NCBI GenBank assembly: GCA_026391835.1
Contig: JAPLDF010000012.1
Coordinates: 1 to 64,000 of the forward strand
DNA length: 64,000 bases
Origin: Bacteroidota bacterium
Lineage (GTDB): Bacteria; Bacteroidota; Bacteroidia; Bacteroidales; FEN-979
Reading direction: 5' to 3'
In this document: piece by piece, positions 1,276 to 58,400 of the stretch
Layout: each line of letters opens with the position of its first letter
How positions within the stretch are numbered: the stretch's first letter is position 1
Program-made: the position numbers and the translations under genes
The notes under the pieces: model-generated
What the model was told of the DNA's origin: nothing
The model's database searches: none
The model's input: the letters and a program-made list of their open reading frames with translations, nothing else

Positions 1276-4200
1276 CTACAACTTAACCAGTTTTATCGTC
1301 TCCACATACCCGTCGGCCACCACTTTAACAAAGTAAAGCCCGGCTGGCATGGTGCTGAGGCCGAAGTCATGCGATTTTTCACCGATCATGCGCTCGCAGG
1401 CAACTTTTTCTCCGTGGATACTGTACAATTCAATGTTCACCTTGTCGTAGAGTTTTGCACCTTTCTGCACGAGGGTGAAGTTCCCCGTGGTGGGGTTCGG
1501 GAAGATGCTGAATGAAGCAAGGTCAGCCCTGGTGTTTGGGACAGACTCACCTGCACCTGCAGCCATGATGGGCAGTGCGGGCGCAGCACAATAGGTTCCC
1601 GGTGCAATGTAGCCGTGCATATATCCGCCGTTGGACACGGTTGTCCCCGGTAAAAACGATATCTTCTGCCATGCGATAAAGGTAGCACTGCCTCCGCTCT
1701 GAACATTGAAGAAATTACCACCGCCGGCAACTGTTATGGTGTTTGCAGCATTGTAACAATTGATGTTGGTTTCGCCAACTTCTCCTGTTACAGTGATGTT
1801 TTCAGGTATGCCGGGAGCAGTTGTAAAGGTCATGTCATTGCCATAAATTGTCACGTTGCTGAATGTGACCGCCCTGATCCTGAAGTGGTATGTGGTATTC
1901 GCAGTCAGACTGGCGACCGGAGCGTTGATATTCAGCAGCACGCCGCCGTTGACGGTAAACGGGGTTCCGTTCACCGTGGTACCATACGCAATGGAAGGCC
2001 CATAATCAAAATAGATATTAACATCCAGTGAGTTAGGGTTTATTGTACCGTTCAGCGTTGCAGAAATATCCAGGATGTCGGTCGCAGCCGTAGTTGCCGG
2101 TACCGGCATCGCGGTGAATTCATAGGCACCGATATCGGGCGGATTGGTGCGGACTACTCCTGCAAAATCGATTGGCAACGTCGGAATGTATTCGCCTTTC
2201 TTTGGCATCAGCGTAGTTGTCGGCAGGAAATTGGTGGTGCTTGTAAATACCGGGTCAACCGATACTGAGGCGGCATCCTGTCCGCAGGCGGTCTGCCAGT
2301 CTGCAAGGGTTATACGATCGGTAGCTCCGTAGTAGCCAACTACCGGGCCGGTCCCTGTCACAGAATAATCATTGTTGTTCTGGATGGTGAATCCCGGACT
2401 GGTTCCCACCAGGATACAGTATGACTTATGCCCCACGGGCGTTCCGGAAACCTGTTGTGAGCTGTTGCTTAGTATGTTATCCCTGAATTCAATCCCGGTG
2501 ATGCTGTTCCTGATGGAAACACAGGCGGAAAGAGCCGGAATTGTTGAACCAAGGTAATTTCCCTGCATTACAATCGTATTGTGAACGATCTTGAAATTGC
2601 TGCCCGACTGGATCATCAGGCCAATGGGATTCTGAGCCGATATTGACTGGGAAGATCCGACAGCCTTTATGTTGTATAGCACATTATTACTTATTTCCGT
2701 CACGGTTGTCGTGTTGGATCCCAGGTAGATGCCTACAGCACCACCTCCGCCACCGAGGTTGTAAAGATCATGGATCTTATTTTTCCTGATCGTAAGGTTT
2801 GAAGTGCCTGAACCGGTTTGAATAATCATAGGCGCCGGAGTTGGATAAGCGAGACTGCCATCCGCAACGGACATGATATCGTTCCCTTCGATCAGCACAT
2901 TATCGATATAGGACAAGGTGATACACCTGCTTGCGACCACCTTTGCCGGGTCCGGGGATCCGATCGTGTTGTTGGTTACCTGGACATTCTGGGCTATATT
3001 GGAGCTAATCCCGCCCAACCTGAGTGCCACGGCTGCACTTGTGATCTCATTGTTGTGGATGACCACATCATGGTACCCGGCATTACCAACAACAGTGTAG
3101 AACACGATTCCCTGGGCATTGTAGATGAATTCAGCATGCGCCCTGATAACACTGTTCCTGATGGTAATATTTCCTGCTCCCACCTGGCCGTTGTTGTAAA
3201 AACCGATGGGTGCGGCAAAACCACCGTTCGCAGTATTTTCAATCGTCATGCTGCGGTCGCTGCCACCGCTGTTGGAACCATCGAAGATCACATATTGTGC
3301 GCCGTTGAGGGAGATCTGGCTCCAGGGATTTGGGGAAACCCCCAGGTAGGAGCATGACAATAACGGGGTGGCACCGGCAGCCGGCCTGATCGTGAGGGTA
3401 GTAGTGGCGCTTGCTCCGGCTATCGGATTGATGATGATCGGATATGTTTCATTCAAGTATGTATTGTCGGTCAGTTCAAGCACGGTGGAACAGGTTATCC
3501 CTTCGGTGTTGATGTCGTTTATGGCAGCTGTCAGCGTAGGATAATACTTGTCGGCTCCGACAGTTAACACACCGCATCTTCCCTGGGTGATCTTATAAAA
3601 GTTCTGGGGTGTAGGCGGGGTTGTTGCTGCCGGAGGGTTTACAGATAAGCCATCCGATCCAACCAGTGGGAAAGTTCCTGCATTGGGTGTTGTGAACTGA
3701 TCCTGTGCAACCACGTAATAAAAGACAGTATCGCCGGTATTCGCCCCGGCTCCGAACGTGAAGGTGTTCTGGTCATTCCCGGTGGAAACGCCAGTCACAT
3801 AGGTCCATGTTCCGGCGACAGATTTTTTCCAGGCAAGACGCGGCAACCCTGCACCGGTGGTGGGTACACCGTGTGGGTCGGTGATGGTGGCCGTGAGGGT
3901 GCGTTCATCGGTCGATGTGCCGTTCAACAATGGTGTATAAAGGATCGTGGGGCCAAAATGATCATCCGGTATCCCGGCGAATTCATCGGCGCCGAGATCG
4001 GCGGCCACTGCAGGATATGAGGGGTTGTTGGGATATCCTGTACCAGGGAACCTTGCATCATTGTCAAAGTCATTGGTGATGGAGACAGGTGTTGAAACGG
4101 TCTGGCCGGCGCTTTCGCAGATGGAGCCCACGGCCGGATCGTTATGGATGTCATACGGCGATGTTGAGATTTGAACGAATGCAGGCATCCCGGTGATGGA

Positions 4201-6258
4201 ACTGTTTTCTTTCGGCCACTCGCGGGTCTTATAATCATTGAGAGATTGATCGTAAACAAAATAACTTGCATCATTGTTGGAGATCATGGCGATCAGGTGG
4301 GATGAGCTGGGTATACCGGCATACAGGAGGTTGTTGTTCGTTGCCGGGACCAGGTTGTCAATCGCAGCGCTATAAATACTATAACCATTTGATTTAAGAG
4401 CGACTGCAAATCCACCGCTGGTCGGAGCACATCTGTTTATCAGGACATTGTTCCGGAGATCAATGGCAGCAGGATTATAGCTCAGGAATATGGCTGATGT
4501 ACTGAATGAACCTGCCGACGAGGTTCCGTCAAGAAAGACGGTGTTGTTATAGATTCCTAGGTACGTCAAACCATTTCCGAACCCATATATCCCGCACAAC
4601 GCACCACCCGAAGACGCTCCGGACGCTCCGGAACTTCCGTTGGGAGCCTTCAGCTCGGAGACAAAGTTATTATAGATATACATCGGGCCTCCATTGCTCG
4701 AGCCGGAAGAGTAAATCCCGTAAACATAGGCACTGGTTCCCGTCCCGTTGGTTTTCAGGTTCTGAAACTTGTTTCTGTAAATAGATTGGTTATAACCTTC
4801 TCCCAAATAACAGCCATATACATTTCCGATGGCAGAAGTCAGATTGGTGACAGTGTTACCGTAAAGATTCTTATAGCCGGGTCCGCCCAGGTAATAGAAC
4901 CCCGCCAGCAATCCGCTTGTAGGCGTAGTGATGTTATTGATCACATTTTCATAAACCGAAACTGTTGCACCTGAATTGCCAATCCCAAGCCAGAAACAAT
5001 TGGTCGCTCCCCCGCTGCCTGAAGCTGACTGGTAGCGGGTAAAATTAGAGAAATTGTTTCCGTGAATATCCGCGCTGAGGAGGGTGGTGGCCGAACCGAA
5101 GATATAAATACCACCGGTAGTTCCCTGGCTTGTCGTGGAGGCGGATCCGTATGTGTTGTTCAACACATTGTTGTTGTACACGTTGAGTACCTGGGCACTG
5201 TTGTTAATATACAGGTAGTATGCACTCCCGCTGGTTGCATTCGGCGAACTGCAATTCGAAACGGTATTGTTGTAAAAACTGGCAATATTATTCGTATAGG
5301 TGGTTCCCATATTGTTGTAAATGCCATAAAACGTTCCGCTGCTGGCGTTGAAAACAACACTCACACTATTATTGTACACGCTGACATTTGAATTTTTTGA
5401 AGTATTGAGCTGGATTGCACCAAAAGCTCCTGTTGTATTGGCCACAGTACCGTTAACAATGTTATTGGCAATTACAAGCCGTTCCTGGTAAGATGTCTGG
5501 ATACCGCTTGCAGCTGCAGTACCGCCGCCGGGACCGGTAATGGTATTGGCCCCGTCCTTGCCGATCTCGTTCGACTGGTCATAGAATGCATAGGGGGCAT
5601 TTGCATCATTGTATCCGTTCACAATGATGCCGTTGTAACATCCTGTAATGGTATTGGCGTAAAATTTATTGTTCGAGTTGGCACCGGCCGTACTGCTCAC
5701 TGTCAGAAGTGCCGTAGGGGCCGTACCTGGTAAAATATCCGCCGAATAGATCCCGACGGTATTGACATTGGTGCTGCTTTTCAACGAGATGTTGCAATTG
5801 CGGATGATCACATTCTGGGATCCGTTGCCGGCGGAATTTTTCAGGATGGCATATCCCCATTCAACCACACCCGTGGGGTCGGTAACATTGATGCCATCAA
5901 AGGTGATGTAGTCGGATCCCTGCAGGGCGATCACATAGTCATACACATTCGGTCCTGTGGCATACCCTGTAATAACCGGGTTAACACCGGTACCACTCCA
6001 CTGGAATGTAATCGGGTCTGAAACGGTCCCTGTGGCGGTTATCAGCCCGGCTGTCAAAGAGGTGAAGCTTTCCATATAGCCGCCTGCAATGACAAAGGTA
6101 ACACCACCTGAACCAACACCATTGAAATTTAACGCTATAATGGCATTGGTCACTGTGGGATAATCCCCCGGGATGTTTTTGGTGCCTGTGAGTGGCTGTC
6201 CAAACGACAACACACTAACCATTAACATGATAAATAGTGTAAACTGTGTTTTTTTCAT
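1276..6258 (-). CDS. Giant secreted beta-helix protein with T9SS type A sorting domain (1660 aa)
   Basis: An N-terminal signal peptide (MKKTQFTLFIMLMVSVLSFG) is followed by a long Asn/Gly/Ser/Thr-rich region. Turns of the type VYNNNV, NISNNV and IRNCNI recur there, typical of right-handed parallel beta-helices. There are two units. The first ends at LGADEF before an Ig-like linker (DERTLTATITD...VFYYVVAQD). The second starts at VGADKYYPTLTAAI and ends at DIGAYEF. After these come a fibronectin-like segment (about 1390-1480), a Gly-rich module of about 70 residues (CYNAANTITVAGGG...GGYMHGYI) and a T9SS signal with FPNPTTGNF ending in IKLVKL. It is probably exported through the outer membrane and anchored or released after CTD processing. 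The unit design matches the 4171-aa protein at 46.4 kb. A 57-aa gene lies 29 bp upstream in the same direction. The ligand or substrate is unknown. Confidence 0.9.
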   Translation of the reverse strand: MKKTQFTLFIMLMVSVLSFGQPLTGTKNIPGDYPTVTNAIIALNFNGVGSGGVTFVIAGGYMESFTSLTAGLITATGTVSDPITFQWSGTGVNPVITGYATGPNVYDYVIALQGSDYITFDGINVTDPTGVVEWGYAILKNSAGNGSQNVIIRNCNISLKSSTNVNTVGIYSADILPGTAPTALLTVSSTAGANSNNKFYANTITGCYNGIIVNGYNDANAPYAFYDQSNEIGKDGANTITGPGGGTAAASGIQTSYQERLVIANNIVNGTVANTTGAFGAIQLNTSKNSNVSVYNNSVSVVFNASSGTFYGIYNNMGTTYTNNIASFYNNTVSNCSSPNATSGSAYYLYINNSAQVLNVYNNNVLNNTYGSASTTSQGTTGGIYIFGSATTLLSADIHGNNFSNFTRYQSASGSGGATNCFWLGIGNSGATVSVYENVINNITTPTSGLLAGFYYLGGPGYKNLYGNTVTNLTSAIGNVYGCYLGEGYNQSIYRNKFQNLKTNGTGTSAYVYGIYSSGSSNGGPMYIYNNFVSELKAPNGSSGASGASSGGALCGIYGFGNGLTYLGIYNNTVFLDGTSSAGSFSTSAIFLSYNPAAIDLRNNVLINRCAPTSGGFAVALKSNGYSIYSAAIDNLVPATNNNLLYAGIPSSSHLIAMISNNDASYFVYDQSLNDYKTREWPKENSSITGMPAFVQISTSPYDIHNDPAVGSICESAGQTVSTPVSITNDFDNDARFPGTGYPNNPSYPAVAADLGADEFAGIPDDHFGPTILYTPLLNGTSTDERTLTATITDPHGVPTTGAGLPRLAWKKSVAGTWTYVTGVSTGNDQNTFTFGAGANTGDTVFYYVVAQDQFTTPNAGTFPLVGSDGLSVNPPAATTPPTPQNFYKITQGRCGVLTVGADKYYPTLTAAINDINTEGITCSTVLELTDNTYLNETYPIIINPIAGASATTTLTIRPAAGATPLLSCSYLGVSPNPWSQISLNGAQYVIFDGSNSGGSDRSMTIENTANGGFAAPIGFYNNGQVGAGNITIRNSVIRAHAEFIYNAQGIVFYTVVGNAGYHDVVIHNNEITSAAVALRLGGISSNIAQNVQVTNNTIGSPDPAKVVASRCITLSYIDNVLIEGNDIMSVADGSLAYPTPAPMIIQTGSGTSNLTIRKNKIHDLYNLGGGGGAVGIYLGSNTTTVTEISNNVLYNIKAVGSSQSISAQNPIGLMIQSGSNFKIVHNTIVMQGNYLGSTIPALSACVSIRNSITGIEFRDNILSNSSQQVSGTPVGHKSYCILVGTSPGFTIQNNNDYSVTGTGPVVGYYGATDRITLADWQTACGQDAASVSVDPVFTSTTNFLPTTTLMPKKGEYIPTLPIDFAGVVRTNPPDIGAYEFTAMPVPATTAATDILDISATLNGTINPNSLDVNIYFDYGPSIAYGTTVNGTPFTVNGGVLLNINAPVASLTANTTYHFRIRAVTFSNVTIYGNDMTFTTAPGIPENITVTGEVGETNINCYNAANTITVAGGGNFFNVQSGGSATFIAWQKISFLPGTTVSNGGYMHGYIAPGTYCAAPALPIMAAGAGESVPNTRADLASFSIFPNPTTGNFTLVQKGAKLYDKVNIELYSIHGEKVACERMIGEKSHDFGLSTMPAGLYFVKVVADGYVETIKLVKL

Positions 6259-11651: not shown

Positions 11652-14600
11652 TTATAGTTTTATCAGTTTTATGGTTTCAGCAGAGTTTAGTGTGACAACA
11701 TGCAGGAAATAGAGCCCCGGCGGCATGTCCGCGATAGACAGGGTATACCTGACGTCGCCGTTCATCATTTTGCTGATCAGCCGGACCCCGCCTGTATTGA
11801 AAAGTTCAACTGTTGCCGGCCGTGGCCCCTGGTCCCCGCCCAGTTCAATTGTCAGCAAACCGGTTGTTGGGTTTGGGTAGACTCTCATGTTCCGGGATAC
11901 CGGGACAACGGGCACCGTTTCAGTCCCCGCGACAACCGTCACCATGGCGGGCGCCATGCCGCCGCAATACTGGTTGTTCGTGGTGATGTACCCATGCATG
12001 TATCCGCCCGAAGCCGCCGTTGTACCGGTCTGGTAAACAATGTTCTGACCGGCTACCATGGTGGCGCTCCCGCCGCTCTGAATCGTGAAAGTGGTTCCCC
12101 CGCCAGCCACAAAGATTGTCTGGAGGGCGTTGTAGCACTGAACCGACCCTGAAGCCACCACGGTATTCCCCGGGTTGTAGGTCGAGGCAATTAAGGTGAC
12201 GGCAAGCGGCGGCGATATGTTTCCGTTTCCGCAATCGTTCGTACCGTAAACAGTGATGTTCCCGGAAACTGCCACTGCCGAATAATCCACCGTGATGCTG
12301 TTGGTGTTGGTGCCGGATGCGATCGAGGCCCCGGCCGGCAATATCCACACATAACCTGTGGCATTTGCTACAGGTGCAACCGAATAGGCGACCCCTGTAT
12401 GCCCCTGGGCTGAGACCGCCGCGCCTGAGATGGCCCCGGCTGCCCCTGTCAGGGACTTCACGGTCACAGCCACCGGCGTGCCGGTTCCTGTGCATCCATA
12501 AAGGTCTGTGACAGTAACCGAATAGTTTCCGGAGGCATTGACGGTGAGACCGGGGGTGGTGGCCCCGTTGGACCAGAGGTAGCCGGAATAGCCGGCCAGG
12601 GGTGCCGTAGAGGGAACCACCCATGTCGGTGTGCCCGCAAAGGTGCCGTTAAAGCCGTGCCCGGTGAGGTCGGCCGCGTTAACGCCCGATCCTTCGTCGA
12701 ACCTGTAACAGGCTACGAGCCCGCTGGTTGATGGTGGTACGACCGCGCCCATGCCCGACTGGATCTGCGCCTGCGTCCTGGCCACATTCCAGATGCGGAT
12801 CTCATCCATCCTGCCGGTGAAATAATCCGGAAGATCCCATCTCCTGGCTATCCGCCACTCCTCGGTGCTGGTTGGCAGCACGGAGGAAGCTGGCAGCGAT
12901 CCGGCGGCAACGCCGTTTACATAGATCCTGATGGCTGTTTGGTCGTAGGTGGCCGCGATATGCGTCCAGGTATTGAGCGGCAGGTTCACCGTGCTCGCTG
13001 CGCTGGTCCAGGCTCCGGCGTAAAATCCCGCGGAGATCTGCTGTCCGTTCAGGTAAATAGAGAATTTTATCGTGCCGTCCGTCAGGAAAGCCTCCCCAAC
13101 CAGTGCCGGGATGCCGACGGTGGCAGCGGTCTGGTAAAACCACCCCTCCACTGTGATCCGGTTGGTGCCGAAGGAGGAGTTGATTGTTGCCGGAATGGTC
13201 ACATAATTCCCGGAACCGGCGAACTGCAGGGCATTGCCGCCTGTGGGGGTCAGTTGAACCGAGCCGCCTGGACAAAATGTCGTGGGACCGCCTGCTGCAA
13301 TGGACGGACTTTCAACCGGGCAGCCGATCAGCAGGGTATAGGTGGAACCCGCACCGCTGCAGCCGTTTGCGTCGGTAGCTGTAACGATGATAGGGAAGGT
13401 GCCTGTTACGGAAGGAACCCCGCTCAGCACGCCGCCGGATGACAGCGTCAATCCTGCAGGCAACACACTTGAGGTGCTGTAGGTCACTGAAACCGCCCCG
13501 CCCGTGGAGGTGAAGGTTTTACTGAATACCGCCCCGGCTGTTCCGCTGGCCCCTGCAGGGTTCTGAACCGCAATGACCGGGCAGATCTTCAGGATCGCCA
13601 CACCGGCCCGCGACTGCCCGTCGGGATTGGTGACCGTGATGGTCTGCAATCCTGCTGCAGCGCCGGTCGTGTTGATGTTCACCGTAATATGGGTCGGATC
13701 GGTATAGGTGACAGAGTTCACCACCACGCCCCCGGAAACAACGGCTGAAATGTGATGAAAAGCAAGTGCAGGTGCCGCAATGTTGGCTCCCGGATCATAG
13801 AACCCGCTGCCACTGACCACAGTTCCTGTCACCACCACGTTTACAGATGCCTGACCGGCTAATGCCGAAGTTGGGAGGCAACTTGCAGGGGTGGCGGGGG
13901 GCGGTGCGATCAGTTTGGTTACATTGCATCCATAAACATCGGTGCCCGCACAATACTGATTTACCATCCACATGGTCATGTCGTCCAGGGGGTCGAGCGA
14001 AACATAGGAATAATCGCCCCATCTCCTGGGCCCGCCCGGATCGCCGATAGGATTATACGCGGTTCCGCTGGCAGTGGTCAGAGCGATTGACTGGGTGGTT
14101 CCGGCCCCATCGGAGGCAAGCCGGCCTGTGGTTGCGGCATTTGCCGCGTAACTGGTGCCCGCCGAAGTCATGCCGAATGCGGCGTGCCCCTGCCCGGTAG
14201 CCATGACCGAGGGGAAAAAGTAATACCTGGGGTTGACAGCTGCAGGATCGAAGATGGTGCCCGATTGGTTGAGCGATGGGGTTGTGGCCAGGTTTGTGAG
14301 GTCATACCAGCGAACTCCGTTACGGTTTGGCGAAGTTGTCGTACCCGAGGCATTCACATGTATGGTGTGCGCGGTCCATAAATGCCCGCCACGGATCATG
14401 GCGGCAAACAGCCTGTCGTCAATCGCGTCGAGGTTGCCACTCGTACCACCGGTATTTCCAAGGTGGGGAACTGATGCGGGAAAGGAGGTGGAACTGACTG
14501 TGACGGGGATATTGGCCGAAATGGTCGGTATGCCGGCAGGTGAACTCACCCTGCGTAACATTAAGGTGCCATAGGTGGCGTTATCCACCCCGATGAAATA

Positions 14601-15557
14601 ACCCTGCGTGGCGGTGATGTCGAAATTATCGACTCCCTGCGGCGTATAGGGCCCGGAGCCGGTGGAGGTGAGGTTGAAGAACTGGGAAACAGTGTAGATC
14701 CCCCCGGACATCAGGATGTTCCTGTTGATAACATAGCCGTTGGTATGAAGAAAGCCGCCGGCCAGCGAAAACATGTTTCCCCCGATGTATACGGCGTTTA
14801 CATCAATCCCGATGGTGGGATAGTCGAAGAAAACGCCTGCTTCCCCGAGGAATGATGAGAAAGTCCAGGTGGTGCCGGCGGTGATGGTCGATGCATTGCT
14901 CACAGCTAAAAGGACCTTGTTTGGCAAGGCACCGGCACGGCCCGGCACATCAATGATAATAATGATCCATCTGCCTGAAAACCGGTCGTAGCGGATCCTG
15001 GGATCAGAGGTGAAATTGTTGCTAACAGGTGGTGTCATGACCGGGGCGAAGAAATTATCGGGGGTTACATTCAGCGCCCCGTCGGCAGCCCCGGTGGTTG
15101 CATTGAACGACCTGATGATGCCGTTCACGGCGACGATGTACTGGGTGGGACCGATGGATCCCATGTCGTCCGGGGGGAAAGGCCCGTTTGAGGAGCTGCT
15201 GGTGAACCCGTTGAACGAAGTCCCGATCGTTTGCGGCAGGTCCGTGGGGGGGTGCTGCGGAGTGACCAGGGCCCTGTCAATATCCGGATAGGTGGCAGCC
15301 TGTGGCGAAAGCGGGTTCTGGGGCAGGTTGGAACGGTCGGGGTATTCCTTTTCCGGCCGATCATGCATCACCGGGGCAGGGGCAAGCCGGGCCCGCTCCA
15401 TGATTTCTGACACCGTTTCGGTCCTGGTTGGACGGACCTTGATGGAAGCATCCGCAGGCTGGTCCTGTTGCGCAGATGCGTTTGAACCGGCAAAGAGAGC
15501 CACCCAGAACAAAATGAATGGGAGCAGGAGAGAGGATATGTAATTTGTTTTCTTCAT
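11652..15557 (-). CDS. Giant secreted LamG/Ig protein with T9SS type A sorting domain (1301 aa)
   Basis: A signal peptide at 1-29 (MKKTNYISSLLLPFILFWVA...) leads to a domain at about 100-540 beginning GTSFNGFTSSSS and GPTQYIVAVNG, probably a beta-propeller-like region of unknown role. Then come an IPT/Ig-like segment, a putative Ig domain (LPAGLTLSSGGVLSGVPSVTG), a LamG/concanavalin-like domain (GNYVTIPATINSSFG...WTHIAATYDQ...GRMDEIRIWNVAR), Gly-rich Ig-like linkers, and the cassette shared with the other two giants (CYNALQTIFVAGGG...GGYMHGYI). It ends in a T9SS signal (VYPNPTTGLLTIE...IKLIKL). LamG domains usually bind glycans or proteins. It is a surface or released protein of unknown target. 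A TATTTTTG element lies 121 bp upstream. Confidence 0.9.
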   Translation of the reverse strand: MKKTNYISSLLLPFILFWVALFAGSNASAQQDQPADASIKVRPTRTETVSEIMERARLAPAPVMHDRPEKEYPDRSNLPQNPLSPQAATYPDIDRALVTPQHPPTDLPQTIGTSFNGFTSSSSNGPFPPDDMGSIGPTQYIVAVNGIIRSFNATTGAADGALNVTPDNFFAPVMTPPVSNNFTSDPRIRYDRFSGRWIIIIIDVPGRAGALPNKVLLAVSNASTITAGTTWTFSSFLGEAGVFFDYPTIGIDVNAVYIGGNMFSLAGGFLHTNGYVINRNILMSGGIYTVSQFFNLTSTGSGPYTPQGVDNFDITATQGYFIGVDNATYGTLMLRRVSSPAGIPTISANIPVTVSSTSFPASVPHLGNTGGTSGNLDAIDDRLFAAMIRGGHLWTAHTIHVNASGTTTSPNRNGVRWYDLTNLATTPSLNQSGTIFDPAAVNPRYYFFPSVMATGQGHAAFGMTSAGTSYAANAATTGRLASDGAGTTQSIALTTASGTAYNPIGDPGGPRRWGDYSYVSLDPLDDMTMWMVNQYCAGTDVYGCNVTKLIAPPPATPASCLPTSALAGQASVNVVVTGTVVSGSGFYDPGANIAAPALAFHHISAVVSGGVVVNSVTYTDPTHITVNINTTGAAAGLQTITVTNPDGQSRAGVAILKICPVIAVQNPAGASGTAGAVFSKTFTSTGGAVSVTYSTSSVLPAGLTLSSGGVLSGVPSVTGTFPIIVTATDANGCSGAGSTYTLLIGCPVESPSIAAGGPTTFCPGGSVQLTPTGGNALQFAGSGNYVTIPATINSSFGTNRITVEGWFYQTAATVGIPALVGEAFLTDGTIKFSIYLNGQQISAGFYAGAWTSAASTVNLPLNTWTHIAATYDQTAIRIYVNGVAAGSLPASSVLPTSTEEWRIARRWDLPDYFTGRMDEIRIWNVARTQAQIQSGMGAVVPPSTSGLVACYRFDEGSGVNAADLTGHGFNGTFAGTPTWVVPSTAPLAGYSGYLWSNGATTPGLTVNASGNYSVTVTDLYGCTGTGTPVAVTVKSLTGAAGAISGAAVSAQGHTGVAYSVAPVANATGYVWILPAGASIASGTNTNSITVDYSAVAVSGNITVYGTNDCGNGNISPPLAVTLIASTYNPGNTVVASGSVQCYNALQTIFVAGGGTTFTIQSGGSATMVAGQNIVYQTGTTAASGGYMHGYITTNNQYCGGMAPAMVTVVAGTETVPVVPVSRNMRVYPNPTTGLLTIELGGDQGPRPATVELFNTGGVRLISKMMNGDVRYTLSIADMPPGLYFLHVVTLNSAETIKLIKL

Positions 15558-20629: not shown

Positions 20630-21529
20630 TTGAAAAACAAGAAATTATTATTGCTTCCCTTGCTGTTCTCCTCTGTTTTTACCGGTAACTTGTTTTCCCA
20701 GGAACAGGGTGTTATCCCCGCTTCCAATGGCGATGAAAATAAAAATGTGCTCTGTGGCGGTATCGAACGCTGGGCGGTTAAAGTACTAACCGACGCGGCT
20801 GCAGCCCAGGTCAACTATACGCCAAAACTGACCACCATGGATTCACTCATTCATATTCCGACCAATCCGAGTACGATAGCACCACGAATGGCCGGGATCG
20901 AGTTCCAGAACTACACGATTACATGTAAAATCACCATCAAAAAAAATGAAGATGACAACGACTACCATCTTGTGCTTAGTTCAGGTGGCGAAACAATGGT
21001 GGGTGAAGTGCCCGATCCTGTTTGTTCCGCTGCCGCATCATCCGCCCATGTGAATGAGTTTATTGCTTCACGCAACTGGGTCAATACGCATATCGGGACA
21101 GGTGGTGTGGCAAATGTCAATATAGCGCCCGTTGACGTTACTGGGGTTTCTTTCGTTGACGTGTATCACGGCCAGACCGGCGCGGCACCGAATCAAATGG
21201 AAATACATCCAATCCTCGACATCCGGTTTTCAGCCGCGACCGGATTAACCGAAAGCAGCGCACCGGCGTTCCGGGTGCGTGTGAACCCGTCAATATTTTC
21301 CGAATCGACAAATTTTCGCATCACTTCCGACCATGAAATACTTGGAGCGTGTACACTCGAAATCTTTTCGGTAACGGGGAACAGGGTGAAAGAACTTGAA
21401 CTGCCGGTTTCCGGTAAAAATGACATCAATTATACCTTCAGCCGCAACGGGCTAACCGGCGGAATGTACATTTACAGGATCCGGAACAATCAATCGATAT
21501 TGTACGAAGGGAAGATTATCATTCAATAA
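20630..21529 (+). CDS. Small secreted T9SS cargo (299 aa), unknown function
   Basis: The best start is a TTG at 20630. It gives the signal peptide MKNKKLLLLPLLFSSVFTGN and lies just after a TATCTTTG element. The mature region (GIERWAVKVLTDAAAAQVNY, then MAGIEFQNYTITCKITIKKNEDDNDYHLVL) contains Cys residues and has no family I can name. The C-terminus, about 215-299, looks like a T9SS sorting region (LEIFSVTGNRVKELELP...NGLTGGMYIYRIRNNQSILYEGKIII) but lacks the PNP motif. It lacks the Gly-rich cassette of the three giants. It is monocistronic and convergent with the O-antigen-ligase-like gene. Confidence 0.75.
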   Translation: MKNKKLLLLPLLFSSVFTGNLFSQEQGVIPASNGDENKNVLCGGIERWAVKVLTDAAAAQVNYTPKLTTMDSLIHIPTNPSTIAPRMAGIEFQNYTITCKITIKKNEDDNDYHLVLSSGGETMVGEVPDPVCSAAASSAHVNEFIASRNWVNTHIGTGGVANVNIAPVDVTGVSFVDVYHGQTGAAPNQMEIHPILDIRFSAATGLTESSAPAFRVRVNPSIFSESTNFRITSDHEILGACTLEIFSVTGNRVKELELPVSGKNDINYTFSRNGLTGGMYIYRIRNNQSILYEGKIIIQ

Positions 21530-30387: not shown

Positions 30388-30751
30388 AAGTTAATAATTT
30401 TAACAACTATGTTCTGTCGTTTTTAATTTATCCCCCGACTCCCGGCAAATTATTTTCCAAAAAAAACCGCTGATTTCAAATTGCAGGTTGCCAATTATTT
30501 AATCTTTGGTTTGATTTGGTCTATATTAGAAATAGTTTCAGCTTCCGGGAGTTGATAACGGGCTGTATCCGGAGAAACAGGTACCGGAGATTTATCATTC
30601 TGTGCACAAAAAGCACACGGGTTATATTTCTTTATTGGCGGGTTGCCAAAAGGGAAGGATCCATAAAACCGGGGTGAATGCGTTGTGCTACCTGGTGTTT
30701 GATTATATGGACCTTCATGGTAAATAACTTGGAGTATTCTGGCAGAAAGGG

Positions 30752-30759
30752 TATCTTTG
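30752..30759 (+). promoter_or_regulatory. Putative promoter (TTG, 20 bp, TATCTTTG) that decides the start
   Basis: The -7 element TATCTTTG has a TTG at 30729-30731. It lies after the earliest in-frame ATG at 30678 but before the lipoprotein ATG at 30777, so the shorter protein is the real one. Confidence 0.55.
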
Positions 30760-30776
30760 TATCAAACCTTGCCGCC

Positions 30777-46426: not shown

Positions 46427-49400
46427 CTATTGCCTGATTATTCTTACTGTTTTCGCGATATGTCCCGAAACAACCTTTAATAAATAGATTCCGGCGGGTT
46501 TGCCTGATAAGGAAAGATTATATATCCTTTCTCCGGACAAATCCGTCGACAATATCTTTTCCCCCGTCATGTTGTAAATTTCGACATGGATTTTCTCCGG
46601 GAAACCGATCCCGTCAAACTCCAGCGCAAAAACGCCCTCTGTTGGATTGGGGTAGACTTTAAAGAATGGCCGTGCCTGTGTGATGTTGTTTGCATCTTCA
46701 CCGGTGGCGACCATTGAAGGTGCTTTGCTGCCGCAATACTCACCTGATTCAGTGATGAACCCATGCATGTAGCCCCCTGGTTCGACAACCGTCCCTGGCA
46801 GGTAGTCAATGTTCTGCCCGGCAATCATGGTTACATTCCCGCCGTTTTGTACGACAAAGGTGTTGCCACCGCCGGCTACGGTAATTGTCTGGATTGCATC
46901 AAAGCACTGGGTGCCGGTGATATCCAGGTTTTGAAGTACAATGGAAATCGCAACGGTGTTCACCGACATGATCACCGTGCTGGAAATAACAGGAATATGC
47001 AAGGTGCAGGATGCATTTGAAGTCAGCGTGCAGGTGATCACATCACCATCAACGGGAATATAGGTGTAACCGGAGTTTGTCGCCCCGGGCACATTCAATC
47101 CATTCACTGTCCACATATAGGCTGGGGCTGTTCCTCCGTTGACCGGGACGGCCGTAAAGGTAACCGCTGTTCCCGTAAAAACAGGGTTGGCGGATGCCGA
47201 GATAGTAACGCTTGCCTGGAGTAACGCATTCGCCGTTCTGGTCACAGCGGACATGGCATCATTGGCCGGCGTGTTATCCCCGCCGGTTACAACCGTATTG
47301 GCATTAAACGTATAATCCCCGCTTGTACCCATATTGATGGTTGCAGGCATGGATACTTCCAGGGTGGTATTGCCGGCGAGGGTGCCATAAGCAAGAACCG
47401 CATCGCTGGCGTAACCTCCGGTTGCGGTCACCGTAACTTTAACCGGGTTCATGCTGAAATCAATCGGTGCCACGGAGTAATTTTTAATGGCCACGGTGAT
47501 TGTTTCGGCGGTATTGTAACAACCGGAGGCATCCGGTGCTACCAGGGCTGTTGCACCCATGTCCAATCCTCCGTGAACGGAAAATTCATCCGCACCCATG
47601 TCGGGAGTGGCCGGGTTTCTTGTATCATCATCGATATCCGTGGTAATTCCGGTTATTGGTGTTCCCAATCCGTCCAGTGCAAAATTGCCGTCAGACACCA
47701 GGTGGAGGTCGGTGGCGGTTATGAATACAGGGGCGATGTTCCGTGAATTTGCATTTCCACCGAAACCTGAGATGATTCCGGCCAGGTCGGACCTTTCACT
47801 GCCAAGATACCCCAAAACACCCTGTGTTCCGCTTACGGAATAATCGTTATAATCAATGGGGCTGAAAGCTGTATTGGCCGCTGCCGAATAAATGGAATAG
47901 GTTTTGGCCCCGGGGGCGTTCGAATTTACCAGGTTTGTAACAAACAGGTTGTCGCGGATGTCAAGCGCCGAAGTGGCCGGTCCCAGGTACAGGGCAGCAG
48001 ACAGTGTGCCGGCAGCGTTCCCCGAAAAGCTGCCGCTTCCCAGGTTTACCGTGTTGTAATACAGGTTAATCCCGCCGGTTGTTGTGAATGCTCCACCGGT
48101 CGCACCCAGGCGGATACCAACGATGGCATCGCTGGAAAGGTCAGACCATCCGTCACCCAGGATGTCCGAGATCATGTTATTGGATACAACAAGGTTGCTC
48201 TCAGCATTGCCGGTATTGATATTCATCCCCTTTCCGCCATAACTGCCGGTGCCTGTATAACGGATACTGCGGACTACATTGCCGTCGATCCTGGAATTCA
48301 GCACACCCGTCCTGATATCCATCCCCACCGGGTTTGGTGATGATGTAATGAGGTTGAAAATGGTGTTTTGGGTAACCTCGATCCCGCTGCAGTTGCTCAG
48401 CGACATACCCACACTGCCGATATAGTCTGATTCAGTTTCCGAACCGATGCTGTTCTGGCTTATCACATTGCCGGTTTGGCCGCCCGTTCCGGCAACCATA
48501 ATTCCCTTCCGGCTTTTTATGCAGGAGTTATTCTGAAAGACACATCCGGAGTTTGATGCCTCAGCGGCATTGCCCGGCATGGTGCCGCTTCCGCTGAACA
48601 GCCCGGCAAGCGTGTTGTTTGCCCCGCTTCCCTTCAGGATGCAGTTTTTAACTATGTTGAGGGTGGCTCCATCCGAAGGAGCGGCGCTTCCGTTCCATAC
48701 AACCACCGAAGAGGTGTCGGTACTGGTGTTCTCAATGGTCAGGTTTCTTGAATTGGTGCCATTGTTTGATCCATCCAGGATCACATAATCGGCCCCGTTC
48801 AGTTTCAGGATGGCGGAAGTGCCTGAGCCTGAAATCACGGGATTTACGCCCGGGGCGGGTTTGATGGTAAGCGTATTTGTCGCGTTTGCCATCGCATTGG
48901 CGTTGATGATGATCGGGAATGTTTCACCGGGATAGGTGGCATCGGTCAGACTGAAGATTACCGGGCCCCTCAGGCAGGTTGCCGAATTATAGGCGGCAAC
49001 AGCGGCGGTGAGTGTACTGTAGGTACCTCCCGATCCTACGGTATTCGTTCCGGATGCCATGCCTGTAACAAGAATTGTTACAGGCATCATGGCGTTGTTT
49101 CCCGGAAGTGCATCACCGGCTACCTGGGTTTGGGCATTAAATGTGTAGGACCCGTCGGCACTCATGTTGATCGCCGCCGGCAGGGTAATATTCCGGGTGG
49201 CATTGAATGCCAGGGTGCCGGTGCTGATGACAATACTGCTGCTGTAACCACCGGTGGCCGTTACCGAAACCGTTACCGGCGTCAGGGTGAAATCCATCAA
49301 CGTAGCAGAGTAGTTTTTAATTGTCACGGTAACAGTTTCTGCAGACGAATAACAAGCGATAGCCGCGGGGGAAACGAGGGTGGTCGCTCCCATGTCTGCG

Positions 49401-52400
49401 GCTGCAGGAGATGTAAATTCATCTGCCCCGATGTCCGGGGTGGCCAGACTTCTTGGTGCATCATCGAAATCCACGGTGATGCCGGCAATCGGGGTTCCCA
49501 GGTTATCCAGCGGGGTATTGGTTGCAGATACCATATGAAGATCTGAGGGAGAGATGAATCCCGGTAAAATGTTTTTTGAATTTGCATCTTTACCGGTTGC
49601 CGCTTGCCATGCCTCCAGTGTGGTTATGTCTGAATTCAGATACGATCCGAGCACTCCCTGGACGCCCGACACATAATAATCGTTGTAATTGAGGTTGTTG
49701 AATGCCATATTTGCAGCTGCAGAATAAACCGAATAATTTTTTGATCCCGTTCCGGAGACATTGGTGTTGTTCATGGAGTTCATGAAAATGTTGTCGCGGA
49801 CATCCAGTGCGGAGGCCCCGCTTCCGGCATACAGTGCAGTCGTGTGACAAGCGGCAGCAGCGGTGTAAGAACCGTACATGTTTACGGTATTGTAATACAG
49901 GTTGATCCCGCCTGTGGTCGTTGCAAGGTTATCGCTGTAGCCGATCATTCCTATGCCGATCCCCATTGAAGAAGAACTGTTAAACCCGGCATTGTTCATT
50001 CCCGTCACGCCACTGATAAAATTGTTGGCAATTGTCAGGGAACTGCCGGTTAAACCAGTTCCCACGGTAATGCCTCTTCCGCCAAAGAACCCTGCAGAAG
50101 TTGTATTTACGCAGGTAATGTTGTTGCCGGTGATTGCTGAAGAGACAAACCCGGTTTCCAGTGATATGCCGACGGGGGTCCATGAGGAAGTTTGAACGCT
50201 GATGTAATTATCGCTGATACTGCAGTTTAACCCGTTTCCTGCCTGGATCCCGATGCAGGGATTCAGGGTGCTTGTGCCGACAGAATTGTTTGTGACAGTT
50301 AAGTTGTCCATCCCGTTGCTGCTTACAGCAGCATTGCCACAGGCATAAATGCCGATGTCGGCACCCGTGATTAAGTTGTTGATCAGACTGACATTGTCGT
50401 TATCAGATCCCGGTGTGCCGGATGTCACTCCCCCCACCGCGATTCCGTACCCGGTAGTAGTGCATGTTTCAGTACTGATATTGCAATTTTTAATGATAAC
50501 GTGGGAGGCCCCGGCCCCGGTACCTGAACTTGCCAGGGAAACCGCCGTTGGACCGGTTGTACTGGTGTTGGTAATGGTCAGGCTCCTGTCGTCATAGCCG
50601 CAGTTGCTGCCATCGATGGTCACATATTTGGCGCCCTCTATTTTTATCACGGGGCTGTTTGGCACCTCGCAGCTTATGACTGCCTGGTTCCCTGTTGCCG
50701 GTTTAATCGTAAGTATGTTCGTGGCATTTGCACAAGGGTTGGAATGAATGGTAATAATATTCGAGTCACCTGTATAGCTGGCATCCATCAGCATGAAAGT
50801 TACAGGCCCGTGCAAACAGGAATTGTTATAGGCATAGGCTGCAGCCTGCAGATTCGGGTATTGCAAATTTTTACCAACGGCATATGTTCCCGAAAGGCCG
50901 GGCAACACCTGGTAGAAACTGGGATTGGACGGCGGTGTGGTAACATTGGTAACATCGGTTGCCACCATGTTGGCCGAAGGATTAGACGTAATATTCATCG
51001 GGGAGGCAACATCCTGGGCAATTACATAATAATAGATCAGGTCGCCCGTCTCGAGGGCATTTGTTACAATATGAAATCTCCAGGTTCCATTTGTTAATGT
51101 TCCCGACATCAGTTGTCCCGGCTGCGGGTATTGCCAGGTCCCGGAATTTTTTTTGTAATAAATCCGGGGAACCAGGTTCCCTGTATCCGGAACACCTGTG
51201 ATATCGGTAATTGTCACCCCTGTTAACCAACGGCTCGAATTGATGCATGAATCGTTGAGCATGGTGTACGAAATAACGGGAGCAACCTTGTCGATGTTGG
51301 TTCCGGTAAATTCATCTGCACCAATATCGGGTCTGATCGCATTGCGGGTGTCCCCGTCAAAGTCGGTGGTACATCCGGCAACGGGGATGCCCCCGCTTTC
51401 TATTTGTGTCGGGAAAGAAGGATCTATGCGGAGGTATGCCGGGTCACTGCTGGAAGTGCTTATCCAATGAGGATTTTCGGTAACGGAAGAGGCATCGCGG
51501 CCTGGTTCGACCGCAGCTTTGTAAGCAGCCAGTGTTTGATAAGCGTTTGTCCCGTCATACATGATAACATTATGTTCCCCGGGGGTACCGGCATAAAACA
51601 GGTTGTTGTCTGAATTACTGGTATAATCCCCGAGCCAGGTTGCATCCCGGCAATAGGCTGATGTGTAACCTGCTCCATTCGGCGTGGAGGTGTTGACGAG
51701 GATATTGTTGCGCAGGGTGATCGGGGTGATGTGGGAATATACAGCAGTACTTCCAAACAATGACCCTGAACTTGTAGCATTTATGTAAACGGTGTTGAAG
51801 TAAATATCCGAGAAGTTGTCAGCATTATAAATACCTTTGATGGGAAGCGCGGCATTTGCTGATGCGGCACGCAGGTCACCGATGAGGTTGTTGAATATTT
51901 TCAGCGATGCGCCTGCATTATAAAGCCCGCAGACAGTCGGATTGGTGTTGCCAGAGGACAGGTTGTATATCTCGTTGTTTGATATAGTGCCATTGGCGCC
52001 GGATGCAATGTACATGCCGTACAGGTTCATTGCCCCGCTGCAGGAATGGACTGTATTCCCGGTCACGCCAAATGATGATCCGAGGGCAAGGTTTAACCCG
52101 TAAATGGTGGCACCGCCGGCAGCCGATAAATTGTATATGTTGTTGTTCCGGGCATCGGTGGAAGCCCCGGACTGGGCATTGGCATACCATCCCACAATGG
52201 TTTCGGCCCCTGTGGAAACTGACGTTATGTTATAAATGTTATTGTTGAGGATGGTTTCGGTTGATGAGGTGCCTGAGGAATATAGTCCAAACAAATCTGA
52301 AGATGCGGAGGCGCCGGTTGACGCTAAATTGCTGATGTTGTTGCCGTTGCAGGTAACCGTGATTGGCGATACATACCTGATCCCGTAAACAATACCCCCG

Positions 52401-55400
52401 GTGTTGCGGGTGATGTTGTCAACCAGGTTCGCATTGCAATTCAGGTTGGCAGCGCCACCGGCGCATATGCCCGTAACTGTATCGTTGGTGGTGAGGATGC
52501 CGATGTTCTGAACGGTGTTGGTGTTGATGCTGATTGCGTTTGAGGAGGCAATGCTGGCATTGCAGATCCCGGAGAATGTGCCGGTGGACGATGTAAGTGA
52601 AATATCGGTGATGATGTTGTTGCTGATATTGCAGGCTGTGTCTGCCGTTGAAGCGGCTGCAAGATAAATACCCTGGAAAGAACCTGCGACCCCGCTCCCC
52701 GTGAGGGTGAGGGTGCCGGCTCCTGCATTGCTGGCGTAACCGATCGTATTGCCTGTGATTTGAATGTTGTTCCCGTAACTGGCATTGGCAAAGTATATAC
52801 CATTCATGGTGCCTGCCGCGGTGAAGGTGCGGCTGGCAGCCTGGTAGAATTTGTTGTTTGCAATGTTCCAGCCGGTGTTGCCGGTAAGGATATAAATACC
52901 TGCGCACCCGGTGGTCTGGAAGAAATTGTATATATCACAGTTGCTGATGGTCACATTGCTGTTGGCTAACGCAGGTGAGCCGGTACTTCCCTTCCCGTAA
53001 ATGCCTTTCGAAGGCAAACTGGTGCCGGCAGGGGCTATACTGCAATTTGAAATGGTATTGTTGTCATTGCCTGTAACAGTTCCGTTGCTGAAGAATATGG
53101 TCCCGCCATCGGTTGTCAGGGCCATGCCCGATGAACCTGTGATGGTACAATTCGTTATGGTGTTATGAGTAGCATCAGCAATGAAACGAAGGGTGGAGGT
53201 ATTGGCCGCAGTGCCTGAATTGGTGTTGGAAATTGTCAGCGAACTGCCGCCGGAGTTCAGCCCGTCGAAAGTTACATGATCGGCCCCGTTTAAATCTACA
53301 AGCGGCCCTGCATTTGTACCTGAAACAACCACATTGACCCCGGTTGCCGGTTTTATGGTAAGGGTATTGATGGCACTGGACCCGGTGTTGGCTTGAATGA
53401 CAATGGGAAAGCTTTCACTGCCGGAATAGGAGGCACCGGTGAGGCTGAAAATTACAGGTCCTGCCAGGCAAGCGCCATTGTATGCATTAACGGCTTCCGT
53501 GAGGGTTGGATAGTGTCCGCCGGTACCAACAGTATAGGTGCCCGAAAGGGTGGCCAGTACAGTGAAGGTGTTCGGGGTGGATGGTGGTGTTGTAACCGAG
53601 TTGACACTGGTTGCGACCAGCCCGGCAGCAGGATCCGAACTGAGATTGTTCTGGGTGGAGACATCCTGGGCAATGACATAATAAGAAACAACATCATTTC
53701 CGGCAACCCCGCCCATATCGGCGGCAACAATCGTAAAACTCCAGGTTCCGTTGCTGGCTGATCCTGAAGTTAACACACCCGGGTGTGAATACCATGTGCC
53801 TGAATTTTTTTTGTAATATATGCGGGGAACCAGGGTTCCTGTGAGGGGAACACCCGAAACGTCCGAAATCATCACACCCGAAAGGGTACGGTCCGCCAGG
53901 CTGCATGAATTGGCCATGGCTGAATATGAAATGACCGGGGCCGTGACATCCATGACTACTCCTGCAAATTCGTCAGCACCAATATCCGGTTTGACTGTAT
54001 TACGGCTGTCCCCGTCATAGTCGGTCGTATAACTGGCAACCGGGGCACCGCCGCTTTCTATCTGGGTCGGCTGTAATACTGTTATGTGCAGGTAGCTGGC
54101 ATCACCGCCGGAGGTGCTCACCCAGGCGGGGTTTTCGGTTATGGAAAATGCGTCGCGGGTGGGCCCGACAGCCGTTTTATAGGAGGCCAGTGTCTGATAG
54201 GCGTTTGTGCCGTCGTACATGATGAGATTATGTGTGCCGGGTGTTCCTGCATAAAACAGGTTGTTGTTTGAAGTACCGGCATAGTTTGCAAGTGAAGTGC
54301 CCTCCCTCCGGTACGTGGCTGTTATACCTGCGCCTTTCGGGACGGATGTATTCACAAAGATGTTGTTACGCATGTCGAGCGCAGAACTTTCAGCGATGTA
54401 AATTGCTGAACTGCCGAACAAGGCGCCGGAACTTACGGCATTCAGGAAGACGGTATTGTAATAAATGTTAGCCGGTGTGTATGAATTAATGAAAATACCT
54501 GCCAGGGGATGATCTGAATTTGCCGCGGTGGCCCTCAGGTCACCGATAAGGTTGTTATAAACGTTGATGGTTGTCCCGCCTGAAATATATAACCCGTAGA
54601 CCGTTGCATTGGAATTGGCGGAAGAGAGGTCGTAGATCTTGTTTTTAAATATTTTGCAGGTTGTGCAGGATATTGTGTTGATCCCGGTGACCAGGAGTGC
54701 GTTGCTGAACGAATACAGTTTATTTCCGCTGATTTCCATGGTGGTTCCGGCACCAGCCCTGATGCCATAGATCGTGGTTCCCCCTGTTCCGGATAAGCCG
54801 TAAATGTTGTTGTTTTGAATCGTTTTTGTACCTGTCGACGTGGGACTGTTGAACCCCATAATGGTCTGGGCGCCGGTGGAACTGGTTGTAAGATTAAAGA
54901 TGTTGTTGTCCGTGACCGTTTCGTTTACCGGAATGCCGGAGGAGTATAATCCGAAGAAGTCTGCTACGGAAGAGGTGCTTGCTGAAGTTAAATTGCTGAC
55001 GGTATTGCCGGTGAAGTTTAGCGTATATGGGGCAACAGAGCGGATTCCAAAAAATACGCCCCCTGTGTTCCTTGTAATGTTGTTAACCACGTTCATGTTA
55101 CAGGTAACGGATGATCCGCCACCGGCATAAATGCCGGCAACGGTATCCGTTGTAGTGAGAATATGGATGTTTTTAACCTGGTTGGTGTCGAACGACATTA
55201 CATTACTGGTATAGGTGATGCCATTGTATATCCCATAAAATGTTCCGGTGGAGGATGTCAGTGAAATATCAGAGATCACATTGCTGTATAGATTGCATTG
55301 CAGGTTCTCTCCCCCGCTCTGAACAATGTAAATACCCTTGAAAGAACCCGCAACTCCGCTACCTGTAAGGGTTAGTGTGCCTGTTCCCGAGCTGGTGGCA

Positions 55401-58400
55401 TAGCCAATCGTGTTGTTGGTGATATTTACTGGGGTTCCATTCATGGAATTGGCATAATAAATCCCGTTCATGGCGCCTGCGCTGGTGAACGTGCGGGGTG
55501 CGGTCTGGTAGATCTTGTTGTTTATAATGTTCCAGTATTGACCGGTGAGGATGGTAATACCTGTACATCCTCCGGTCAGGAAAAAATCATAGATTTCACA
55601 ATTGGTAATGGTAATAGAACTGTTGACATCATAAGATGAGCCGGGATTTCCATGATCATAAATGCCTTTTGAAGGCAACGATGAACCGGCCGGACCTATT
55701 TTACAATGGGAGATGGTATTGTTGTCGTTCCCTGTTGTAATACCGGTGCTGAAGAAGATCGTTCCCCCGTCGGTGGCCAGGGCCATGCATGCTGAACCGG
55801 AAACGGTACAATTGGTGATGGTGTTGTGTGTTGCATCGGCAATAAACCGGAGCGTGGAGGTATTGACCGCACTGCCGGCATTCGTGTTGGAAATTGCCAG
55901 GGAACTGCCGCCGGCGTTCAATCCATTGATGATCACATAATCTGCGCCGCTGAAGTCAATGAGCGGACCTGCCTGTGTCCCAGAAATAACGACGTTGACC
56001 CCGCCTGCAGGCTGTATCGTAAGGGTGTTTGTGGTGCTTGCATAAGCGTTGTTATGAATGGTAACCGGGAAGACTTCGCCGGCCGAATATGCAGCACTGG
56101 TAAGGATAAAGGTGACCGGGCCGCCCAGGCAGGCATTGTTGTATGCACCCACAGCCGCAGTGAGTGTTGGATACTGGCCGTTCAGACCAACATTGTAGGA
56201 GCCTGACAGGGTGGCGAGGACCGTATAGGATACCGGAGCGTTGGGAGGAGTTGTAACGGTGTTTACGTTGACTGCCACCAGGCCATCCGCGGGGTTCGAA
56301 CGGATATTGCCCGTGGGGGCTACATCCTGGGCAATCACAAAATATGAAACAACATCATTGCCGGTTACACCGCCCATATCGGCGGTCACAATCGTAAAAC
56401 TCCAGGTTCCATAGGTTGCGGATCCTGAGGTTAAAACTCCCGGTTGTGAATGCCAGGTGCCGGAATTTTTTTTGTAATAAATTCGGGGAACCAGGGTCCC
56501 TGTTACCGGCACACCGGATATGTCAGAAATAATCACCCCCTGCAGGGTGCGGTCAGAATTGTTGCAGGAATTGGGCAGTGCCGTAAATGATATTGCAGGA
56601 GCAGTGACATCTATCATGGTTCCGGCAAATTCATCGGCACCGATATCCGGGGTGGCCGGATTCCGGATATCCCCGTCATAATCATTGCTGTATCCGGCAA
56701 CCGGGGCACCGCCGCTTTCTATTTGTGTCGGAATCGAAGGTGCTATATGCAGGTAATTCAGATCATTTCCGGAAATACTGGTCCAATGCGGATTTTCAGT
56801 TACCGACAATGCATCACAGGAAGGCCCGATGGCCGTTTTGTAAGCGGCTATTGTCTGATAAGCGTTTGTACCATCGTACATGATAACATTATAGGGACCA
56901 GGGGTGCCGGCATAAAAAAGGTTGTTGTTCGAGGTGGCGGCATAACCCGCCGGGGTTGAGCCCGTTCTCCTGTAAGCTGCCGTATTGCTTCCGCCATTCG
57001 CTACAGAGGTATTCACAATGACATTGTTCCGCATATCAAGCATAACGCTTACCCCGGCCTGGGCATAAACAGCAGCGCTGCCGAACATGCTTCCGGAACT
57101 TGTGGCATTCAGGTAAATGGTGTTATAATAAAAATTTACTATTCCTGAACCAATGTAGGCACCTATCAGGGAAAGGGGTGAAGTTGCCGCCGGGGTGTTC
57201 AGATCGCCCATGAAGTTGTTGTAAACGTTCATGGTGGTGGTACTGCCGGTGTTGATATAGAGGCCGTAAAGCCACCCTGTTTCACTCGGGCAGGACAAGG
57301 AGTAGATCTTGTTCCTGAATATGTTTGCCAGGTTAAATGAACCGGTTGAGATCCCGCATAAACCTGCGGCACCGCTGATCGAATAGATCTGGTTGCCGCT
57401 GATCTCCAGGTTCGACCCGGTATATAGTTTCATTCCATATATGGTGGCATTTCCTGCTGCCGAAAGGTTGTAAATGCTGTTGTTCTGAACAACAGTGGAT
57501 GATCCCGCCTGGGTATTGGCGTACCAGCCGATGATGGTTTGCGTACTGGCAGAGCTGGAAGTGAGGTTGTAGATGCTGTTGTTGATGATATGCGTGACTC
57601 CCGGGTTGCCTTCGGAATACAATCCGTAAAAATTGTAGCTGGAGGAGGTACTGGCCGAGTGCAAATTCTTAATGGTGTTGCCACTGATGGTAATCGTTGA
57701 CGGGGAACCATACTGGATCCCATAAATGAAACCGCCGGTGTTTCGCGAAATGTTATCCAGGGTATTCGAGTTGCAGGTAATGATGTTGGCGTCGCCTGCA
57801 GATATTCCTGTGGCCATGCCTTTGGATGTGAAAATGCCAATGTTTTTAACCACATTGGTATCGATGTGAAGGGTGTTTATCGATTTATAACTGGCGTTGG
57901 TAATTCCATAAAATGTTCCGGTAGAGGATGTCAGTGAAATATCGGAGATGAGGTTGTTGCATACATTGGAGGCAATGGAAGTGTTGGATGCTGCAACAAG
58001 GTAGATGCCCTGGAATGCGGCTGCAATCCCGGTTCCGGTAAGTGAAAGTGTGCCCGTGGCTGTGTTGCTGCCGTAACCGATGGTGTTGCCGGTGATGTTG
58101 ATGTTGCTTCCTGTGGTGGAATTGGCGAAATAGATCCCGTTCAGGGTGCCGGCAACTGTAAAGATGCGTGGAGAAGTCTGGTAGATAAGATTGTCGACAA
58201 TGGACCAGGCGGAGTTGCCTGCCAGGGTATAAACGCCTGCGCAGCCGCCTGAGAGGAAGAAATCATAAATCTCACAGTTGGCAATGGTGACATTGCTGTT
58301 GGCAGCCGCAGATGAGCCTGTACTGCCATTCGCATAGATCCCCTTGGAAGGCAAGGCAGCGCCGGCGGGTCCGATGTTGCAGTACGAAATGGTGGTGCTG

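Follow-up and report, generated by a model that had tools for sequence, protein, structure and literature searches.

Three very long proteins encoded in the window, by which we mean the whole 64,000-nucleotide stretch of DNA analyzed here (contig C40 of a 5.35 Mb assembly in 86 contigs), end in closely similar tails, which raises the question of what this tail is and what it does for its carriers. A sequence-only reading had proposed that the three share one C-terminal module followed by a T9SS type A signal (CTD). Both parts were located in all three proteins, in the order module, linker of 25-28 aa, type A CTD, with every feature on the reverse strand. The 1660-aa protein (1276..6258), whose cargo is beta-helix-like, carries its module at 1588..1767 (first Cys at 1756-1758, last Cys at 1588-1590), its linker, which runs from the last module Cys to the CTD and is the predicted region of putative sortase processing, at 1513..1587, and its CTD at 1279..1512 (37.7 bits against TIGR04183 and 105 bits against the class model introduced below). 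In the 1301-aa protein (11652..15557), with Laminin_G_3 and PKD_6 cargo according to Pfam, the module lies at 11964..12146, the linker at 11886..11963, and the CTD at 11655..11885 (35.3 and 82 bits, respectively). The 4171-aa beta-helix-like protein (46427..58942) has repetitive cargo with four weak Beta_helix stretches, a module placed at 46733..46915 by translation and profile match, a linker at 46664..46732, and a CTD at 46430..46663. All three CTDs score above the curated cut-offs of TIGR04183 (35.3-37.7 bits, cut-off 23) and PF18962. The modules are about 60 aa each and share 58-60% pairwise identity with 28 invariant columns. Their matches to a model built from the three rows (E 1e-35 to 4e-37) are self-matches by construction; copies other than these three reach E 2e-35 with the same model.

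The upstream domains had been described as different, which holds for LamG/PKD versus beta-helix-like cargo but not for the first and third proteins, whose upstream regions are homologous (31-34% identity over ~800-1000 aligned positions), which leaves two independent upstream parts among the three proteins. Two other cargos, at 20630 and 36252, had been said to have T9SS-like ends without the module. Neither matches the three-module model, but the 299-aa cargo at 20630 exceeds the type A CTD cut-off of 23 bits (26.1 bits), whereas the match at 36252 stays below it (19.9 bits). Elsewhere, the window encodes a LruC-domain protein of 867 aa at 30678-33281 (TIGR04456, 234.6 bits, cut-off 36) and a 731-aa protein without an NCBIfam match at 59010-61205, just upstream of the 4171-aa gene. 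A search of the window for RNA and tRNA features returned none.

No Pfam family matches the module, and a known Pfam domain was accordingly rejected as its identity. The 3-coathanger stack, to which the sequence-only reading had pointed as a resemblance, proved by profile comparison to be a true homologue. Against NF045639 (GCX_COOH, 3-coathanger stack; cut-off 26), the window modules score 15-19 bits alone and 14-17 bits in a genome search, and the only module copies in the same genome to reach the cut-off are two divergent ones. Most copies nevertheless have a sub-cut-off NF045639 match at the same place, and the sub-cut-off matches in this genome fall mostly on module copies. Comparison by hhalign with 16 canonical copies, taken from other genomes and from this one, gave 97.6% (E 3.2e-12, 50 of 61 columns), with the module's C-Y/F-N/D-A placed on the canonical Y-E-A region and GGYMHGYI on GS-x-F-x-A-x-I. 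Judged from these alignments, the module is a divergent form of the 3-coathanger stack. Four canonical copies also occur in the same genome (L077-L080, at C51:32877, C66:5023, C15:29517, and C11:14335), where they form the ends of propeller-like proteins that show no clear type A CTD; the two forms of the domain thus coexist.

Two Cys residues of the module are near-invariant (75/77 and 76/77 copies), the N-side one lying within the first strand, and aromatic and His positions are likewise kept (Y/F in 69/77 copies, H in 52/77), although this strong conservation of Cys, Gly, and aromatic positions is read across related paralogues, which are not independent observations. The Cys residues had been put forward as setting the module apart from the 3-coathanger stack. 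That distinction does not hold, as the flanking Cys pair of the canonical copies co-varies (12 with both, 5 with neither, 1 with a single Cys; Fisher p 0.0007), which fits what is expected of a disulfide, and the pair appears from these sequences to be a feature of the wider 3-coathanger family. The YMHG core named alongside it is a majority feature rather than an invariant one, with M or L at one position and His in the proportion just given.

The AlphaFold2 model of the module from the 1301-aa protein alone (pLDDT 92.4, pTM 0.76) displays seven strands in the pattern 6/4/3, 6/4/3, 6, a repeat that, in the module's own model, is consistent with three stacked strand-turn-strand units. A second model, covering the C-terminal 171 aa of the 4171-aa protein, reproduces the strand order of the module, although the two alignments have most rows in common and the models are therefore not fully independent. 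The module is thus, by prediction, an independently folding domain. In the second model the linker (overlapping model residues 71-88) falls below pLDDT 50, and most of the CTD, again seven strands, reaches 92-97. Foldseek matched this CTD to the T9SS substrate CTDs 8glk_D and 8qb1_A (E 4e-5 to 7e-5, 8glk being the best), and it is predicted to adopt the T9SS type A beta-sandwich fold. For the module, a sequence search of solved structures retrieved no credible relative, and a fold search with the module alone gave weak, nonsignificant matches (best Z 3.1; chains of CcmM, tapirin, and HpmA at Z 2.2-2.5), which count neither in favor of a relationship nor against one.

That the tail moves as a unit, as had been proposed from three proteins, is borne out across the genome. 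The three-module model retrieved 78 matches, which excludes chance, corresponding to ~77 copies after merging of one locus at overlapping contig ends. Upstream of 72 copies, 60 Pfam families were matched within 450 aa, among them SprB, PKD, Ig, GEVED, cohesin, MAM, Kelch, BNR, LamG, and Vps10; the tail therefore sits behind very different cargo, and module, linker length, and CTD class stay together. Every copy with a complete, readable C-terminus is followed by a CTD, except for one weak outlier (L076) that has no recognizable CTD; the remaining departures from this layout are the first copies of tandems and one copy cut by a contig end. The distance from module end to C-terminus is 101-112 aa in nearly all copies, and the CTD begins 24-36 aa behind the module in the 57 module proteins found within the best-scoring 150 CTD frames. 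At least two proteins have two modules in tandem; such pairs precede a single CTD in frames of 513 and 642 aa (C15:45592-45999 and C1:37158-37577). On contig C27, eleven copies lie within ~90 kb (33652-124056), which suggests local duplication.

The module had further been thought to be used only by large proteins. Module-bearing frames range from 180 to 5245 aa, and frames of 459-700 aa carry it too, so this restriction falls. What remains is a strong enrichment: among the best-scoring 150 CTD frames of the genome, with lengths taken from stop to stop, the median is 1436 aa with the module versus 578 aa without (Mann-Whitney p 1e-11), and 28 of the 31 frames of at least 1500 aa have the module.

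Two features escaped the sequence-only reading altogether, namely that the CTDs behind the module form a type A class of their own and that the expansion is restricted to a genus. When module CTDs were compared with 60 CTDs without the module from the same genome, 98.6% of module CTDs and 90% of plain CTDs had their nearest neighbor within their own class (null 50 ± 5%); two of the "plain" CTDs are contig-end fragments that resemble a module-protein terminus. A maximum-likelihood tree of 130 CTDs, which leaves out these two fragments and has few columns, so that single forks are weak, needs 4 label changes versus 42.8 with shuffled labels. By sequence, the CTDs behind the module are clearly a separate class. 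A G-[IVLM]-x-E-like linker motif before YPNP occurs in 37/57 plain CTDs versus 9/72 module CTDs. Across genomes, a model of the class returned 84, 50, 17, and 16 matches where 78, 41, 18, and 17 modules are present, and 6, 6, 6, 0, and 1 in five genomes lacking the module; the abundance of the CTD class thus tracks the module. The class-model matches that were read in module-less members of the genus look like plain CTDs except for L289 (G008 C20:25683-25913), a module-class CTD that immediately follows PKD-like repeats in a genome with no module copies, which could be either an intermediate or a loss. These comparisons indicate that module, linker, and CTD class have radiated together.

The module was found in 10 of 13 genomes of the same genus, with 8-93 copies each, and eight genomes from other families of the order gave no match at E 0.001. 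Wide occurrence in Bacteroidota was rejected by a search of 395 genomes across the phylum, own genome aside, which yielded one strong single copy (G139) and three weak canonical-like matches. On this sampling, the expansion of the module is genus-restricted. A locus scan, queried with the three window modules because a 39-row alignment was too diverse, recovered relatives that are mostly Bacteroidales MAGs, several of them from lakes according to their isolate names; matches in bins titled Chitinophagaceae, Alphaproteobacteria, and Anaerolineales may be binning contamination. The module lies in an open frame at all 59 loci, and a full CTD follows it except at a few loci that are cut or frame-shifted (L130, L155, L165). 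The three module-less members of the genus keep 119-142 type A CTD matches each, so the module is not part of the T9SS itself, and since plain CTD proteins of the same genome do without it, T9SS export as such does not require it.

What, then, might the module do? In P. gingivalis, PorU removes the CTD at sites of the form X/(GSA)(VLI), and the C-terminus left by the cut receives the anchor linker (PMC4560394). RgpB has a folded IgSF domain ahead of its CTD, separated from it by a disordered linker on whose length attachment depends (PMC4804311). The linkers found here are narrowly distributed in length (median 28, IQR 28-31), and [GSA][VLIMF] occurs 5-9 aa past the last Cys in 42/72 of them versus 25.6 ± 3.9 after shuffling. 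The linker of the 1301-aa protein has PAMV at +5 to +8 past the last Cys, which in sequence resembles an X/(GSA)(VLI) sortase site and would mark a candidate cleavage position, and that of the 4171-aa protein has PSMV past its last Cys. The RgpB-like order, the narrow linker, and the motif enrichment together lead us to read the module as an insulator and final plug. Given the observed homology, constant architecture, co-radiation with a CTD class, enrichment in long cargo, and presence of PorU and PorV, we see an even chance that the cassette is a standardized C-terminal delivery end in which a clasped module plug insulates the cargo from the sortase linker. The module would form a very short beta-solenoid of three layers, with a Cys-Cys disulfide probably tying its first part to its last, and would fold on its own behind any cargo; a disordered linker of nearly fixed length would lead to the type A CTD, of a class that is hardly seen except after this module, to be recognized by the T9SS translocon and the PorV shuttle. 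A PorU-type sortase would probably cut the linker a few residues past the last Cys, leaving the clasped module as a compact C-terminal plug of the mature surface protein, to which an LPS anchor may be attached. Sitting between the cargo and the sortase site, where RgpB has its IgSF domain, the module would thereby act as an insulator and a stalk. Against the plug stand L289, with its module-class CTD but no module, and the only moderate enrichment of the linker motif, which is missing in 30/72 linkers, including that of the window's 1660-aa protein (AAPALPIM).

The clear separateness of a CTD class that travels with the module could also reflect a composite sorting code, in which module and CTD are read by a dedicated shuttle or sortase and the cargo is sent to a place other than that of plain type A proteins. 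F. johnsoniae CTDs hold targeting information besides secretion information (PMC12618676), and the genome encodes two PorU proteins (1324.6 and 1244 bits) and a PorV-family protein (407 bits). The PorU genes are full-length and adjacent (C41:78927-82238 and 82360-85680), and are followed by PorV (85916-86995; L197, L198). Yet all 12 same-genus relatives searched, module-less ones included, have at least two PorU matches, PorV-family numbers (2-3) do not track the module among these genomes, and type A CTDs are reported to share PorV. A dedicated PorU or PorV paralogue was rejected because PorU duplication and PorV-family counts do not go along with module presence, and we regard the composite code as unlikely. 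A tentative and rather doubtful extension of the same data is that module, linker, and CTD class constitute a second, genus-specific type A sorting and processing code beside the plain one, a code that would serve mainly giant surface proteins, use a cleavage motif of its own, and leave the mature proteins with a clasped C-terminus.

Improbable as well, in our view, is that the tail hitch-hikes by duplication, inherited through recombination at a homologous 3' end with the module as a neutral spacer. The genus-restricted expansion, the clustering of copies on one contig (the eleven on C27), and the partial co-inheritance of module and CTD (Mantel r 0.33, null sd 0.07) speak in its favor. Purifying selection is indicated, however, by the conserved Cys, Gly, and aromatic positions and by a mean identity of 53% for the module versus 36% for the CTD, and enrichment in long cargo is unexpected for a neutral spacer. 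Binding of a glycan, a metal, or LPS at the cell surface through the conserved aromatic and His residues (Y-M-H-G-Y) fits the frequencies given above but is very unlikely, as one copy in three has another residue instead of the His and F-x-A occupies that site in the canonical family.

Both the domain family and the CTD family were already known, and the phrase "coathanger stack" was not found in the open-access papers searched; we know of no earlier description of the divergent form confined to one genus, of its expansion, or of its lock to a separate CTD class. On the delivery-end reading, a large surface proteome appears to have been built by repeated use of one standard C-terminal plug. 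Type A T9SS signals can, as this case shows, fall into two sequence classes that occur side by side in a single genome, with one class tied to a folded companion domain, and ~75 natural paralogues are at hand for asking what a domain ahead of a T9SS signal does. A stretch left unannotated by curated models in dozens of giant Bacteroidales proteins is now accounted for, and the cassette is a candidate transferable tail for surface display.

Set beside known systems, the window CTDs agree with TIGR04183 and PF18962 in exceeding the curated cut-offs and in their predicted fold, that of solved type A CTDs, whereas the module-linked class is distinguished by F-x-[IV]-YPNPT-x-G-x-FTLE ... VEIY-x-M-x-GE[KR] ... 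GE-x-KHEFSL. With the 3-coathanger stack of NF045639, the module has in common the order Y-x-A-x-x-x-I, G-x-x-x-x-x-AG-x-x-I-x-L-x-PG, G-x-x-x-x-A/G-x-I, C and two flanking Cys, and canonical copies, too, often precede a T9SS CTD, although they also lie at the very C-terminus or inside RHS-type proteins. The differences are that the N-side Cys of the module stands directly before Y/F-N/D-A, while the canonical Cys lies well upstream of the corresponding position; that PGF-A and GS-x-F-x-A of the canonical form correspond to PGT-V and GGYMHG in the module; and that canonical copies are scarce, with 1-3 per genome in 10 of 147 other genomes, in contrast to 8-93 modules per genome placed ahead of a CTD. 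The closest parallel in layout is RgpB of P. gingivalis, which has the same order of folded domain, unstructured linker, and type A CTD (PMC4804311), the difference being that the folded domain here is a predicted beta-solenoid-like 3-coathanger rather than an Ig domain and is reused in ~75 proteins.
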